DNA from: Nitrosococcus wardiae
GTDB taxonomy: Bacteria; Pseudomonadota; Gammaproteobacteria; Nitrosococcales; Nitrosococcaceae
Length of the DNA stretch: 64,000 nucleotides
Assembly: GCF_004421105.1 (NCBI RefSeq)
Contig: NZ_CP038033.1
Coordinates: 1,073,659 to 1,137,658 of the forward strand
Reading direction: 5' to 3'
Positions 2,133-27,313 of the stretch are shown in pieces. The notes under the pieces are model-generated. The model saw nothing but the letters and a program-made list of their open reading frames with translations, ran no database searches and was not told where the DNA came from. A program made the translations under genes and the position numbers. Position 1 is the stretch's first letter; every line of letters begins with the position of its first letter.

Positions 2133-4592
2133 TTATTTCAGTTGGGTTCCTGGACGCCAGCGTCGCAAAAGTAAGGAATTGGAAACCACACTTACTGAGG
2201 ACATGGCCATCGCTGCTCCTGCCACCACCGGGTTCAACATTCCCGAGGCCGCTAGTGGAATGGCTACCACATTGTAAATGAAGGCCCAGAAAAGATTCTG
2301 GCGAATCTTGTGGTAGGTGGCCTGAGAAATAGACAAGGCTTCCGCCACTAAGGTGGGATCGCCGCGCATGAGGGTGATCCCCGCTGCTTCCATGGCCACA
2401 TCGGTCCCCGTGCCCATGGCCATCCCCACGTCTGCTGCGGCCAAAGCGGGGGTATCATTGACACCATCGCCAACCATGGCCACGTGACGGCCTTCAGCGC
2501 GCAATGCCTGGATCTGCGCCGCCTTATCTTCAGGTAATACTTCGGCGATGACGTGGTCGATACCTACTTTATCAGCCACTGCTTTAGCGGCGCGGGGGTT
2601 ATCCCCAGTCAGCATCACCGTAGTTAGGCCCTGGGCTCGTAATGCGGCTACCGCTTGGGGAGTGACACTTTTGATGGGATCGGTGACGGCTAACACACCG
2701 AGCAGCTGGGGCGCTGAGGTCACCTCTGCCACCCACATCAGGGTATGACCACTTTCCTCCAGTGTTTGGGCCTGGGTTAACAGAGAGGTGAGATCCACCT
2801 GATTTTCCCGCATTAATCGAAGGTTGCCCACGAGCAAGGTTTGTCCCTCCACTTGAGTGCTGAGACCCCGTCCGGGAAGACTGCGGAAATTTTGGGGCTG
2901 GCTCAAGGGGAGACCCTGAGCCTTAGTCAGTACCGCCTTGGCCAGGGGATGTTCACTGCCCTGTTGGGCGGAAGCCACCAACTGCAGTAATTGCTCACCA
3001 TTGATTTTGAGCGGAAGTATCTCAGCGACTGCCGGTTGACCTTCCGTGAGTGTTCCTGTTTTGTCAAAGACTACCGTATCGCTGTCCTGAGCCCGTTCCA
3101 ACGCCACCGCATCACGGATCAAAATGCCATGGCGAGCGGCAGCGCCAGTCCCCACCATCAGGGCAGTAGGAGTTGCTAGGCCCAGGGCACAAGGACAGGC
3201 AATGACCAGTACTGAGACGGTTGCCTTAAAGGCGGTATCGGCAGCGCCATCTAATAACCACCAGCCGGCAAAGGTCAGGAAGGCCAACGCCACCACGACC
3301 GGAACGAAAATATTCGCCACCTGGTCGACTAGTTTTTGAACCGGGGCTTTGCTGGCTTGGGCGTCTTCCACCAGGCGGATAATGCGCGCTAGGGTTGATT
3401 CAGCCCCTACGGTGGTGGCGCGGATACGCAATAACCCCTCCCCGTTCACTGAGCCGCCAGTGACAGTTTCCCCTTCTCCCCGGGTTACCGGCAGGCTCTC
3501 ACCGGTGATAAGAGATTCATCCAGTTGGCTGCTACCTTCTAGAATAAAGCCGTCAACAGGCGTTCGCTCTCCTGGCCGTACCAGGACGATATCGCCTTCA
3601 GCTACCTGCTCGGCGGGAATTTCAACCACCTTCCCTTCCCGCTCTATTCGTGCGGTTGCTGGCCGGAGTGCCATCAGGGCGCGGATGGCTGAGGCTGCGC
3701 TCCGTTTCGCCCGCCCTTCCAACCATTTACCCAGCAGGACTAAGGTTACCACCATGGCCGAGGCCTCAAAGTACAGGTGACTGCCGGTGCCGGGCAGGAG
3801 GGTATTCCAGGTGCTTAACCCCCAAGCGGCGGAGGTTCCCAGGACGACCAGCACATCCATATTGCCGGCCCCACCCCGCAAGGATTTGTAAGCCCCCACA
3901 TAAAAGCGGCTGCCGATCCAGAACTGGACTGGCGTGGCCAATAAGAATTGGATTTCGGCAGGTAAACTGACATGGATACCAAAGGGCATGAGCAGCATAG
4001 GCAGGGCTAAGGGCAAGGTAAGCAGGGCTGCCAGCAGCAACTGCCTCCCCTCATGCCGTTCCCGGGCGGTGGACTCAGCTTCTTCTTGGGCGCGCCGCTC
4101 TGCCAAGCTAGAGAGGGGTTCTGCGGTGAAGCCAGCCCGCTGGGCAGCGGCGATAACAGTCGCGGGACTGAGTACTCCTGCAGGGGCTGTAACCACCGCC
4201 CGCTCTGTGGCCAGATTAACGGTTGCCTTGTTGACTCCAGGGAGCCGCGAGAACACCTTTTCAAGCCGAGCTGAGCAGGCTGCACAGGTCATTCCTCCGA
4301 TGCGAAATTCCATCCCTTCCGTGGGCACTGTAAAGCCCGCTTGAACAATGGCCTGGTAGAATTGCTCCGGGGACGCCTGTTGCGGATCAAAGGCAATGCT
4401 GGCTTGTTCCGAGGCCAGGTTTACTTGGGATTTTATCACCCCGGGGACTTTGTTGAGCACCCGCTCTAAGCGGGTTGAGCAGGTGGCGCAGGTCATGCCC
4501 TTGATGGGCAAAGCCAATGTTTGGGCCGTCCCGGTAAGGGAGTCCGTGGGGGAGGACTCGTTAACCGAATCTAAATTTGATATTTCTAGCAT
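2133..4592 (-). CDS. copA: Cu(I)-exporting P1B-type ATPase CopA
   Basis: This is an inner-membrane pump that exports Cu(I) to the periplasm using ATP. The 819-residue protein has two N-terminal HMA domains (MTCATC around residue 34 and MTCAAC around residue 101). It then has the membrane helices, the actuator, the transmembrane CPC copper site (IACPCALG, about residue 465), the phosphorylation motif DKTGT (about 508), the SEHPLA histidine-proline motif and the MVGDGVND hinge. All motifs of an active P1B-1 ATPase are present. It is the first gene of copA-copZ-cueR. The leader contains a MITE copy (4599-4670), and the CueR-type promoter lies about 210 bp upstream of the start. Confidence 0.97.
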   Translation of the reverse strand: MLEISNLDSVNESSPTDSLTGTAQTLALPIKGMTCATCSTRLERVLNKVPGVIKSQVNLASEQASIAFDPQQASPEQFYQAIVQAGFTVPTEGMEFRIGGMTCAACSARLEKVFSRLPGVNKATVNLATERAVVTAPAGVLSPATVIAAAQRAGFTAEPLSSLAERRAQEEAESTARERHEGRQLLLAALLTLPLALPMLLMPFGIHVSLPAEIQFLLATPVQFWIGSRFYVGAYKSLRGGAGNMDVLVVLGTSAAWGLSTWNTLLPGTGSHLYFEASAMVVTLVLLGKWLEGRAKRSAASAIRALMALRPATARIEREGKVVEIPAEQVAEGDIVLVRPGERTPVDGFILEGSSQLDESLITGESLPVTRGEGETVTGGSVNGEGLLRIRATTVGAESTLARIIRLVEDAQASKAPVQKLVDQVANIFVPVVVALAFLTFAGWWLLDGAADTAFKATVSVLVIACPCALGLATPTALMVGTGAAARHGILIRDAVALERAQDSDTVVFDKTGTLTEGQPAVAEILPLKINGEQLLQLVASAQQGSEHPLAKAVLTKAQGLPLSQPQNFRSLPGRGLSTQVEGQTLLVGNLRLMRENQVDLTSLLTQAQTLEESGHTLMWVAEVTSAPQLLGVLAVTDPIKSVTPQAVAALRAQGLTTVMLTGDNPRAAKAVADKVGIDHVIAEVLPEDKAAQIQALRAEGRHVAMVGDGVNDTPALAAADVGMAMGTGTDVAMEAAGITLMRGDPTLVAEALSISQATYHKIRQNLFWAFIYNVVAIPLAASGMLNPVVAGAAMAMSSVSVVSNSLLLRRWRPGTQLK

Positions 4593-4598
4593 AGGCTT

Positions 4599-4670
4599 AT
4601 ACCAATTTTATAAGTTTTAGTATAAACAATCACTTACAGCCTTCATGAATTACGTTCTTTTACTCACTGG
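4599..4670 (+). repeat. MITE copy C (degenerate) in the copA leader
   Basis: This stretch matches the MITE copies at 18920-19012 and 42193-42284. It has the same TACCAATTT end, then AGTATAAACAA, CACTTA, a CTT..ATGAATT block and CTTTTACTCA. The centre between the left end and AGTATAAAC is deleted and the right terminal repeat is not preserved. It lies between the CueR promoter and the copA start codon, so it forms part of the copA 5' untranslated region. Confidence 0.7.
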
Positions 4671-4795
4671 ACTTATCTATGTTTGTCGTTTCCAGGTAGG
4701 CGGGAATTTAATCACTGCCGGAAGAAACTGGATATCTGCCTTTGCGAGGATGATGATGCCGTGCCTTTTGCGTAAATCCTGATTGAATGAGTATT

Positions 4796-4826
4796 ACTAT
4801 CTACCTTCCAGTCACTGGAAGGTCAA
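4796..4826 (-). promoter_or_regulatory. CueR operator-promoter for copA-copZ-cueR
   Basis: Read on the minus strand there is a TTGACC -35 box, then a 19-bp spacer, then GATAGT as -10. The overlong 19-bp spacer is the hallmark of MerR-family promoters. It contains a perfect dyad, ACCTTCCAG..(3 nt)..CTGGAAGGT (4803-4823), which is the CueR/CopA box. The site faces copA and the regulator gene is in the same operon, so copper-induced expression is expected. Confidence 0.9.
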
Positions 4827-4904
4827 GGGGGAGAAATAGGACAGATATTTTCTTCCTCGTGGCAGCACTTCCTCATGCCGAGACGACGTTTCTACTTAGG
4901 GCTT

Positions 4905-18652: not shown

Positions 18653-18728
18653 GGGCCGTTAGCTCAGTTGGTAGAGCACCGGACTTTTAATCCGTGTGTC
18701 GAAGGTTCGAATCCTTCACGGCCCACCA
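18653..18728 (+). tRNA. tRNA-Lys (anticodon UUU)
   Basis: This 76-nt cloverleaf includes the encoded CCA end. The acceptor stem pairs GGGCCGT with ACGGCCC. The D arm is GCTC..GAGC, the anticodon loop is CTTTTAA (anticodon TTT), and the T arm contains GGTTCGAATCC. It closes the core gene run. An integrase remnant lies directly downstream and points back towards it, so its 3' end probably served as an integration site. Confidence 0.98.
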
Positions 18729-18742
18729 TTTAAAACAAATAG

Positions 18743-18919
18743 TTAGGCACTTTTGCTTCCCTTCTCAATCTCTCCTTGTGCCAGATTTGTGCCCTCCGGG
18801 TCCATAAGGCGCGGTTGAGAAAGCTTCTCGGCGTACTCTGCAAAATGATGCGCGCCAAGATGACCATAGCGGCGAACCATCTCTGCACTTTCCCAGCCTC
18901 CGAGTTCCTGGAGCACATG
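18743..18919 (-). pseudogene. Tyrosine-recombinase (integrase) C-terminal remnant
   Basis: Read on the minus strand, 58 codons and a stop encode HVLQELGGWESAEMVRRYGHLGAHHF... This is the end of a phage-type tyrosine integrase, with the catalytic Tyr in MVRRYGHL. No start is present: the coding sequence is cut at 18919/18920 exactly where a MITE begins, and no integrase sequence resumes beyond it. The stub ends 15 bp from the tRNA-Lys 3' end, the standard place for the integrase of a tRNA-inserted element. An ORF in another frame over the same bases is a shadow. Confidence 0.85.
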
Positions 18920-19012
18920 ATACCAATTTCATGTAACTTTGCATTGTATAATGATGAGTATAAACAACCACTTATGATCTTAATAAATTGCATCCTTTTG
19001 CTAAATTGGTAT
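18920..19012 (+). mobile_element. MITE copy A (93 bp, inverted repeats ATACCAATTT/AAATTGGTAT)
   Basis: A non-coding AT-rich element bounded by perfect 10-bp terminal inverted repeats. Its interior (GTATAAACAACCACTTA..TTAATAAATTGCATCC) matches copy B at 42193-42284 in reverse orientation at most positions, and copy C at 4599-4670. It truncates the integrase remnant. No transposase for it is in the window, so it must have been mobilised in trans. Confidence 0.85.
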
Positions 19013-20854: not shown

Positions 20855-20962
20855 ATCGGGGTATGGCCGCAAATCCAACTGGAGGGGCTCCACGCCCACC
20901 GGGAGGGATTGCCTTATACTATTGGGGTAAGAAGTAATACCTTGAGATTAAGGAGAGCAGAC

Positions 20963-21412
20963 ATGGCACACCAAGAGCTTTCCCCTGAACAGGACTTCCA
21001 TGCTTGGGCATTGAACGCTGCCCAACGGGCTAGAGCGGGTCTATTAACCCCGCAGGAGCTGGAGCAAGTGGCTGAGGAACTGGAGGATAGGGCAAAAAGT
21101 GAAAGGAGGGAGCTTAAAAATAGATTAGCGGTATTGCTGGCGCATTTGCTCAAATGGCAATATCAACCCGATGCGCGTAGCTATAGCTGGGAAGGGACTA
21201 TCAACGGGCAACGAAGCGACCTTGACGACTTGCTGGAGGATAACCCTAGCCTTAGGCCTGAGCTTCCGGCCTACCTAGAGAAGGCTTACCAAAGAGGTAT
21301 CCAGAAAGCCGTGGAAGAGACCAACATGAATAAAAGAGCCTTTCCCTCTACATTCTCAGAAACCGGCTGGACCTTGGAGCAAGTGTTAGCTGAGGACTGT
21401 TTTCCAGACTGA
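20963..21412 (+). CDS. DUF29 family protein
   Basis: This 149-residue protein of unknown function belongs to the DUF29 family, common in multiple copies in cyanobacteria and some Chromatiales. Visible family features are DFHAWALNAAQRAR, the acidic EQVAEELEDRAKSERRELKNRLAVLLAHLLKWQYQP helix pair, and the C-terminal FPSTFSETGWTLEQVLAEDCFP. The ATG at 20963 is chosen because AAGGAG lies 9 bp upstream. A paralogue sits at 26873-27313 in the same island. No catalytic motif is recognised. Confidence 0.85.
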   Translation: MAHQELSPEQDFHAWALNAAQRARAGLLTPQELEQVAEELEDRAKSERRELKNRLAVLLAHLLKWQYQPDARSYSWEGTINGQRSDLDDLLEDNPSLRPELPAYLEKAYQRGIQKAVEETNMNKRAFPSTFSETGWTLEQVLAEDCFPD

Positions 21413-23352: not shown

Positions 23353-24396
23353 TTAAATCCAGATTGATAAATCCGCATCAAATCCTACCTTTTTTCGAGA
23401 ATGCGCATGAGCTATTGCAATGCCCACACTAGTCAGGTCAAGACTTTTGAATGATGATTTTTTCATGTCTTCAAGAAATTTCTCGAACTTGGGGGATATT
23501 GACTTCAGATAGTCAGTTGCCTCTTGCTTGTTCATCATCTGGCCATTATTTATCTGGATTAATTTGTTGGTATTTTCATCCGAGATAGCCTGCTGCTCGC
23601 AAAGAGTTTTGATTATGTCATCATCCATTCCTCTAGCCTGAACAAGATTGACGTTGTGCGGACATGGGATAATAACGTTCCAAATATTTGGGCTTTCTTC
23701 TGCAATATCGCTTAGCTGCTCTCTCTCAAAACCTTTACAAAATACGGCCTTATAGTTTTGCATTAATATTTTCACAATATCCCTAGAGCCTGCCCTTATC
23801 CCAGCACATCCAACATACTCTAGATGTCTGTAGTTTGAGTCCATTTCGCCGACGGCATCTGCAAATACTAGTACAGCATCGTTCAAGTGATCAGCAAACA
23901 TCTGCGGGTTAGCGATGTTGACTCTTTTGGCATATGCGAGATTAAAACAACATGCCAGTATATCAAGCTGCGTGCCATTCAATTTCGGTGCTATTGATAA
24001 AGATTCATTTAGTACTATTTGGAGCAGGCTTCTTTCTTCTTCCTTCGAACGATCAACTAATATATCAACCAGAATATCTCCTAGCTCTTTGTCTCCAGAG
24101 CGAGCATATTCTTTTTGTACTTGAAACAGAGAATATTGGAAATCAGGGTCTTCAGATGCTTTTAAGCTATCTGGATTCTTCTCTGAAAGCTCTCCCAGAA
24201 ACTGCTCCGTAATCTCTTTCGCTCGTTGATCGGCGGTTTCTTTGGCCACGCCAGCAAGTTTGTAGAAATTGCCTTCGAACACTTCTAGCGCGATTTCCTT
24301 AACATGAGAAATTGACAGGCCTGTATTTACAGTTATGTTCTCCGCTTGCATATTTATAGATTTATCGCCTGACTCTTGTGTCTTCTTACTTATCAC
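23353..24396 (-). CDS. LPO_1073/Vpar_1526-like protein of unknown function
   Basis: This is a soluble, mostly helical protein of about 347 residues. It opens with the motif ESGDKSINMQAENITVN (predicted beta-type repeat), then SHVKEIALEVFEGNFYKLAGVAKETADQRAKEITEQF. The N-terminal GDxSxNxQ motif and helical body match my memory of the family named LPO_1073/Vpar_1526, whose role is unknown. The GTG at 24396 is the proposed start because AAGGA lies about 6 bp upstream and it overlaps the upstream gene's stop; a longer frame opens at 24435, and ATG MQAEN is another option. The low GC content differs from the core genes, indicating transfer. No nuclease or nucleotide-binding motif is recognised. 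Confidence 0.7.
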   Translation of the reverse strand: MISKKTQESGDKSINMQAENITVNTGLSISHVKEIALEVFEGNFYKLAGVAKETADQRAKEITEQFLGELSEKNPDSLKASEDPDFQYSLFQVQKEYARSGDKELGDILVDILVDRSKEEERSLLQIVLNESLSIAPKLNGTQLDILACCFNLAYAKRVNIANPQMFADHLNDAVLVFADAVGEMDSNYRHLEYVGCAGIRAGSRDIVKILMQNYKAVFCKGFEREQLSDIAEESPNIWNVIIPCPHNVNLVQARGMDDDIIKTLCEQQAISDENTNKLIQINNGQMMNKQEATDYLKSISPKFEKFLEDMKKSSFKSLDLTSVGIAIAHAHSRKKVGFDADLSIWI

Positions 24397-24586
24397 CACT
24401 ATCCTTCTTATTCGAGACGTTAATGCTGCCACCAACTTGAATATTTGTTGAATTGTCGCCGCTTTTTTGTGTCATCTTTGTGTTTGATGATTTTCGAAAT
24501 GAAACCCACGATATGACTGCAACGCCGATACCACTGAAGATCCATTCTTTATTATTCATTATGTAATCTAGCACTTTATTCTCCAT
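24386..24586 (-). CDS. Small membrane-anchored protein with SGDNSTNIQ motif
   Basis: This 66-residue protein has a short N-terminal amphipathic stretch (MENKVLDYIMNNKEW), one transmembrane helix (IFSGIGVAVISWVSF, residues 16-30), a basic turn, then the tail QKSGDNSTNIQVGGSINVSN. The SGDNSTNIQ motif (residues 42-50) recurs at the start of the next gene as SGDKSINMQ. The two frames overlap, so they are probably co-translated. It acts presumably as the membrane partner of the downstream protein. No clear Shine-Dalgarno precedes the ATG. Confidence 0.65.
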   Translation of the reverse strand: MENKVLDYIMNNKEWIFSGIGVAVISWVSFRKSSNTKMTQKSGDNSTNIQVGGSINVSNKKDSGDK

Positions 24587-24659: not shown

Positions 24660-25374
24660 TTAGGCCTGATCATGCCTAGACAACTGTTCATTTACGAATT
24701 TGACCGTGCTCTTATATTTGGCTTGCACTTCATCTGGTAATTGCTCGAAAGGTCCGAAGGTACTCTCGAATCCCTGCTAGAACTGTGGGACTGAGATGGG
24801 TGGGCTAACCTTGAAGTCACGCGCCACCACTGCAGGCCAGTTCACTATGAAACGATGCTTTACCTCAGCCTTTAATGGAACAGGCCATTCTATAATTACG
24901 TTGCTATTGCCGCTCTTCATCGCTAAGTTTTTGGCTTTTTCCTGAAATGACTCGGCAAGTGTGATGCCTAGCCATTGTGCGGATTCTCCAACACAATATG
25001 CTTCAATGAGTGCTGGGCCGGCAGCATTGATCGGTCTAGGTTAAAAAAGAACCTATCCCAGGCTAATCCCGCCCTAACCGGCGCATAGCCTTATGGAAAA
25101 TTTCGGTCACAGCTATAACCATACAGCGTAACTCAGTGTCCGTGTCCCCTTTTGTGAATAAGATGATCGTGTCTGAGAATGTAGTAGATCGAATGGCTTT
25201 TGAGGGCATCACTCTTTCATTGGGGTGGAGGAACTCTATTTCATAGTTTCCAATCCGATCTCTTACGGTTACTAAATCAGAAAGCATACTCCAAGCCTTG
25301 TCGGCATCCTTTTTCACGATTGCTGGCATTCCCAGAATGTCGATATGGGCAACAAATCTACGATCTTGATTCAT
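24660..25374 (-). pseudogene. Cyclase-like hypothetical protein, decayed
   Basis: The first 103 codons (MNQDRRFVAHIDILGMPAIV...STTFSDTIILFTKGD...AMRRLGRD) stop at 25063. The continuation is readable in other frames: RFFFNLDRSM, then GPALIEAYCVGESAQWLGITLAESFQEKAKNLA...EWPVPLKAEVKHRFIVNWPAVVARDF, a TAG at 24777-24779, and a tail ending EQLSRHDQA. The pattern (IDILG near the start, FSDTI, then GPALIEAY..E) resembles the large group of hypothetical proteins with a class III cyclase-like fold. The segment between MRRL and RFFFN is shortened. It lies upstream of the two-gene SGDxS unit, same strand. Confidence 0.6.
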
Positions 25375-26872: not shown

Positions 26873-27313
26873 ATGATGACAAATCCTACCCAAGACTATT
26901 ATGCCTGGACCCAAGAGACTATTGAGAAGTTGCGTCAGGGCAAGTTTAGCGAGGTGAATATGGAGGATCTTATCGAGGAATTAGAAGAGATGGGGGGCAG
27001 TGAGCGCAACGAGCTAGAGAACCGTTTGACCGTGCTACTGATGCACTTACTCAAGTGGAAGTACCAGCCGAACTACAGAGGCCGGAGTTGGCAACTAATC
27101 CTCAAAGAGCAGCGGCTGAAAATAAAGATCCGCCTCAAAAAAAGCCTGAGCCTAAAGCCGCGATTGTCTGAACTTGGAGAAGATGCTTATTTGGTCGCAG
27201 TGGTTGCCGCCGCACGGGAGACAGGCTTGGAAGAGGATGTCTTCCCCGCCACCTTTGAGGAAACGGGCTGGAGTTGGGAGCAGGTGCAGGACATGGAGTA
27301 TCTTCCAGATTAA
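26873..27313 (+). CDS. DUF29 family protein, second copy
   Basis: This 146-residue paralogue of the protein at 20963-21412 shares QDYYAWTQETIEKLRQGKFSEVNMEDLIEELEEMG, SERNELENRLTVLLMHLLKWKYQP and the C-terminal FPATFEETGWSWEQVQDMEYLPD. The function of DUF29 is not established. Two starts (ATG ATG) follow an ACTGGAGGG Shine-Dalgarno. The two copies differ at many positions, so this is not a recent local duplication. Confidence 0.85.
   Translation: MMTNPTQDYYAWTQETIEKLRQGKFSEVNMEDLIEELEEMGGSERNELENRLTVLLMHLLKWKYQPNYRGRSWQLILKEQRLKIKIRLKKSLSLKPRLSELGEDAYLVAVVAAARETGLEEDVFPATFEETGWSWEQVQDMEYLPD

Follow-up and report, generated by a model that had tools for sequence, protein, structure and literature searches.

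A conserved gene pair in Nitrosococcus wardiae, a small membrane protein and an LPO_1073 family protein joined by a shared motif, as a candidate receptor-to-membrane relay

Why should two neighboring proteins, one a small membrane protein and the other a soluble member of an uncharacterised family, carry the same short motif? The question arises from a stretch of 64,000 nucleotides of the Nitrosococcus wardiae genome (contig NZ_CP038033.1, positions 1,073,659 to 1,137,658; hereafter the window, whose coordinates are used below), in which an earlier note had reported two overlapping minus-strand frames of 66 and 347 residues. Both are present. A small protein with a single transmembrane (TM) helix is encoded at 24386–24586 (minus strand; 66 aa if the ATG at 24586 is the start), and a 347-aa protein at 23353–24396 (minus strand), with a GTG start (24396) preceded by AGAAGGA; the two frames overlap by 11 nt. 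For the small gene a GTG at 24574, which would give 62 aa, appears the more likely start because the N-termini of homologues agree with it and a GGAG Shine-Dalgarno box lies in front. The gene pair has a GC-content of 39.8%, against 52.9% for the window, which bears out the low GC noted earlier. The family named for the larger protein, LPO_1073/Vpar_1526, was also correct: the protein matches NF045477 over the full model length with 302.8 bits (E 2.2e-90; the curated cut-off is 45 bits) and is a clear member. From the NCBIfam name neither function nor partner nor fold can be read, and the model begins after the motif.

The small protein has approximately 40 residues before its motif, and these include one TM helix with the core IFSGIGVAVISWVSF (24497–24541, minus strand), of which FSG is invariant in the alignment of 1-TM homologues. 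Positive residues (RK...K) follow the helix core and, on the positive-inside rule, the tail is predicted to be cytoplasmic. It is this tail that holds the C-terminal motif SGDNSTNIQVGGSINVS (24413–24463, minus strand; residues 42–58). The N-terminus of the 347-aa protein reads MISKKTQESGDKSINMQAENITVN, with the motif SGDKSINMQAENITVN at residues 9–24; the motif region QESGDKSINMQAENITVNT (24322–24378, minus strand) lies outside the NCBIfam model. The remainder (23353–24321, minus strand; NF045477 over residues 26–347) is an all-helical LPO_1073 domain, the putative receptor, with a long first helix and a conserved C-terminal LTSVGIAIAHA...DLSIWI. That the small protein has in its tail a motif with which the large one begins, as the earlier note had seen, is confirmed by alignment: the best local match between the whole proteins falls there, and it beats shuffled versions of the small protein (p about 0.002).

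The search for relatives of the unit covered whole genomes and E. coli genomes as well as plasmids and IMG/VR contigs. Flanking DNA is present for 19 distinct LPO_1073 loci (the window, L002, L003, L004, L005, L007, L008, L009, L012, L014, L015, L016, L017, L024, L025, L026, L033, L040 and L043; L013, where the contig ends, is left out of the count), and all 19 have, linked to the large gene, a small membrane protein whose C-terminal tail bears the motif. These loci come from several proteobacterial genomes and from prophage contigs, and the C-terminal motif is kept in all partner proteins. The two proteins go together in distantly related bacteria and in phages; theirs is a conserved pairing and no product of chance. 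The possibility that homologues of the large protein normally lack the small partner, which the earlier note had raised against its own reading, fails on these loci. So does a second, namely that a frameshift has left the two frames as the remains of a single longer gene. This explanation, or that of a chance resemblance between low-complexity tails, takes its appeal from the overlap of the genes in the window and from the shortness of the motif; however, the genes are separate at all loci, an intergenic gap lies between them in four pairs (L005, L024, L025 and L006), and in L012 the order is reversed, with the small gene downstream of the large. A broken longer gene is therefore excluded. An intact pair in Marinimicrobium, 83% identical, and the conservation of the motif in all pairs leave a chance likeness, too, with a negligible probability.

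The same note had proposed that pairing is mediated by the motif, and two observations back this: cognate motifs match each other, and either partner is found exchanged while the motif stays. In all 21 pairs compared (the 19 LPO_1073 loci and two pairs with other receptors), the best whole-protein local match joins the C-terminal tail of the small protein to the N-terminus of the large; 19 reach p ≤ 0.02 against shuffles, the matches in L009 (p 0.12) and L015 (p 0.19) being weak. Cognate motifs score 46.9, compared to 34.6 for non-cognate motifs (20 pairs; permutation p < 1e-5), and the excess is found within the class of 1-TM partners (p 1.6e-4) and that of 2-TM partners (p 0.04). The two proteins of L007 have KGGIGS.NIQ in common. 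Since common ancestry accounts for part of the cognate matching, swaps of partners weigh more as evidence.

Swaps are found on both sides of the motif. LPO_1073 proteins are accompanied by membrane partners of two unrelated kinds: the 1-TM protein with its invariant FSG, and a 2-TM hairpin with W...PGFDS, a family whose alignment is too diverse for a scan. A tree of the LPO proteins, built without the motif, places about three changes between 1-TM and 2-TM partners, at least two of them on well-supported branches, with two long branches leaving the exact placement of the changes unsure. In L025 (1237–3370) a 2-TM small gene comes before two tandem LPO_1073-type genes, the second of which is altered at its C-terminus. 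The 1-TM protein in turn pairs with two receptors other than LPO_1073, both motif-bearing. In L037 (genome G182; minus strand, 108–1502 and 1474–1683) a 464-aa protein that matches no known family is paired with a 1-TM small protein, and the partners agree in an unusual variant of the motif, NFQVGGENSTNYQ / NFQVGGDNATNYQ, with NFQVGG[DE]N[AS]TNYQ common to both; the 464-aa protein may be a second type of receptor for the same relay. On a plasmid of Azospirillum argentinense (L006) an unannotated 56-aa 1-TM gene (3989–4159) lies upstream of a 230-aa protein (4169–4861) with the motif at its N-terminus, a candidate third type. What stays the same while the parts on either side are exchanged is the motif. 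When GDNSTNIQ was searched as a DNA pattern over viral contigs, four stretches were returned: two known pairs and two unrelated proteins.

What kind of protein is the larger partner? AlphaFold2 gives a confident, all-helical LPO domain (mean pLDDT 83) and renders the motif as two short low-confidence strands. Foldseek searches with two AlphaFold2 models (pLDDT 83 and 79) found nothing below E 0.1 in the PDB or in the BFVD viral library, and the large protein has no match to an NTPase or repeat family in Pfam, NCBIfam or PADLOC. A likeness of LPO_1073 to annexin in a PDB sequence search (E 0.038) is weak and was treated as chance. Residues 119–167 of the LPO protein of L005 show a weak likeness to phage T4 Cef (PHROG 1354, E 0.0012; Pfam, E 0.007). 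A profile of the motif recovered no RHIM structure from the PDB, its sole match being an ice-binding protein (E 2.3).

In the window a tRNA-Lys lies at 18653–18728, and a short minus-strand frame after it resembles, by eye, the C-terminal remnant of a phage integrase; together (18653–18993) they likely mark the edge of an island. Genes of toxin-antitoxin type (a HicB-like antitoxin, a ParE-like gene and HicA) lie near the unit, so that the tRNA and toxin-antitoxin setting described from the sequence holds, and a terminase fragment is also present. DUF29 genes flank the unit on both sides (20909–21412 and 26873–27313). Directly upstream is a broken gene (24660–25374, minus strand): its decay, which had been pointed out before, is evident from a frameshift and stops, whereas the label "cyclase-like" was not confirmed, the first piece of the gene having no match in Pfam. 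Given this company, and the arrangement of a small hydrophobic protein with a soluble partner in an overlapping operon, the pair could itself be of toxin-antitoxin type, the TM protein being a membrane toxin that the soluble partner restrains through the motif and that loss of the partner releases. Yet homotypic motifs on both partners are atypical for toxin-antitoxin inhibition, and the large protein lacks a match to a DNA-binding (autoregulating) family; we regard this explanation as very unlikely.

The unit is rare, and its distribution is sporadic. LPO_1073 is found in three of 398 genomes across the phylum and in two of 369 in the class, and the unit is absent from the genomes of 58 relatives (0/58). 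The 1-TM profile matches six genomes of the 398-genome set, including all three with LPO_1073, an overlap that is partly circular in that these three contribute rows to the profile. A search of annotated phage records with the 66-aa and 347-aa proteins gave no matches. The E. coli pair (L005, 4734–5846) has the replication endonuclease of P2-like phages on one side and their portal gene on the other, a position in the gpA–gpQ hotspot, and PADLOC Hp1-Hp2-Hp3 proteins are found in the same hotspot beside it; the cos-proximal P2 hotspot has been shown by experiment to carry anti-phage systems (PMC9122126). The pair of L007 directly adjoins a Thoeris system (ThsB, E 1e-57; ThsA, E 2e-201), and L033 adjoins a gene that is integrase-like by sequence. 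Relatives thus occupy two independent defence settings, the P2 hotspot and the neighborhood of Thoeris, and on the basis of genome location a function of the pair in anti-phage defence is likely; the suggestion of a defence module, put forward earlier as a hypothesis, gains support from the same two settings. The pair might instead be a signalling or housekeeping membrane complex that travels on mobile elements for some purpose other than phage defence. The NCBIfam family being uncharacterised, and the open-access literature searched having yielded no account of LPO_1073 or of the pair, there is room for such a role. Nevertheless, the sporadic and mobile distribution, and the presence of relatives in a phage-defence hotspot and beside Thoeris, make it a rather unlikely one.

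On balance we favor, with moderate confidence, the view that the gene pair is a single receptor-to-membrane relay, most likely an anti-phage module of the abortive type. The conserved pair, the shared motif, the matching of cognate motifs, the swaps of either partner and the relatives at defence sites all support this view. The LPO_1073 domain would be a soluble receptor or regulator that responds to an infection cue; once triggered, it would expose or cluster its N-terminal motif, which in turn would nucleate the cognate motif that the small TM protein has in its cytoplasmic tail. The assembly would be homotypic and of beta type, probably amyloid-like, and the TM helices so clustered would disturb the inner membrane. 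By analogy with the systems discussed below, signalling would run from the receptor to the membrane protein, the motifs would template a beta or amyloid assembly, clustered helices might damage the membrane and kill the cell, and phage infection is the presumed trigger.

The TM segment is found in other company as well. In L027 (3992–4606), L057 (1501–2208) and L058 (916–1599) NKEWIFSG is joined to soluble domains that are unrelated and lack the motif; the fusion in L027 carries a receiver-like domain, lies beside a kinase-like gene and is similar in size to PDC-M43A of PADLOC. PDC-M43A, of the candidate system PDC-M43, has the same N-terminal NKEWIFSG segment and its N-terminus matches the small protein (E 4.5e-7), but it differs from the small protein in being 203 aa long. 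Because the helix also carries motif-free soluble domains in these three loci, the chief rival to the relay is a passive anchor: a constant beta-structure formed by the motifs would tether LPO_1073, the effector, to the inner membrane. This would accord with the recurrence of the helix as an anchor of unrelated domains, and with the LPO domain being the larger part and having a strongly conserved C-terminal LTSVG...W block. Against it, LPO_1073 has no recognisable enzymatic family or fold; a fixed anchor could be fused, yet the genes stay separate at all loci seen; and the swaps of receptor type around one small protein resemble the diversification of sensors. We judge the anchor to be improbable, while granting it a real chance.

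A receptor-to-membrane relay of this kind has parallels. NLR-associated BASS pairs consist of a Bell-domain effector and an NLR (Dyrka et al. 2020, as relayed in PMC7889193 and PMC8086366), and for both BASS and HET-S/NWD2 pairs the proposed mechanism is that the effector takes on a cross-beta fold templated by the receptor (PMC7889193). Like the BASS/NLR pairs, the unit described here has two adjacent or overlapping genes, with the motif C-terminal in a small membrane-directed protein and N-terminal in a large, receptor-like one, and shows swapping of effectors and receptors; the fungal pairs HET-S/NWD2 and HELLP/PNT1 also place the motif at the C-terminus of the effector and the N-terminus of the receptor. 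As in BASS, the motif is G/N/Q-rich and beta-arch-like, with a core of the type hydrophobic-Q-hydrophobic-G, and with reference to the RHIM/PP/BASS3 core quoted in PMC7885112 it resembles the G-(I,V)-Q-(I,V)-G of mammalian RHIM (RIPK1/RIPK3). However, the spacing after Q is at least one residue off that of the BASS3 peptide, and ahead of the hydrophobic-Q pair there is usually N or A in place of the G of RHIM. The verified Frankia BASS3 peptide (PMC8086366) scores 3.5 bits against the motif profile, a value equalled by 67 of 1000 shuffles and so not significant. Unlike the BASS/NLR pairs, the LPO_1073 receptor is not an NLR (no NB-ARC or NACHT NTPase was found in it), a bare 1-TM or 2-TM peptide takes the place of the predicted Bell helical bundle (as judged from size and topology), and unicellular proteobacteria, with their prophages, are among the hosts. 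Since neither an NLR nor a Bell domain was found, the pair is, by its sequences, no BASS/NLR system proper; that it works like a relay of that type is a reasonable analogy. The relay would resemble the one put forward for NLR/BASS-amyloid pairs, and would differ from it in having a non-NLR receptor and a minimal TM partner.

The best-known cases of an immune signal relayed by prion-like templating are those of fungi and animals; for bacteria, such a relay has been proposed mainly in the NLR pairs of filamentous species. If the reading given here is true, a much simpler relay exists, consisting of two phage-borne genes that encode a bare membrane peptide and a non-NLR receptor. More tentatively, the pair may belong to a large and modular class of minimal, NTPase-free prokaryotic immune signalosomes, spread by phages between distant bacteria, in which receptors of several sorts (LPO_1073 plus two or more others) would template a beta or amyloid fold onto membrane-opening peptides of the 1-TM or 2-TM type. 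The unit is small enough to be cloned and tested whole in laboratory E. coli, and the uncharacterised LPO_1073 family would thereby gain a testable function.
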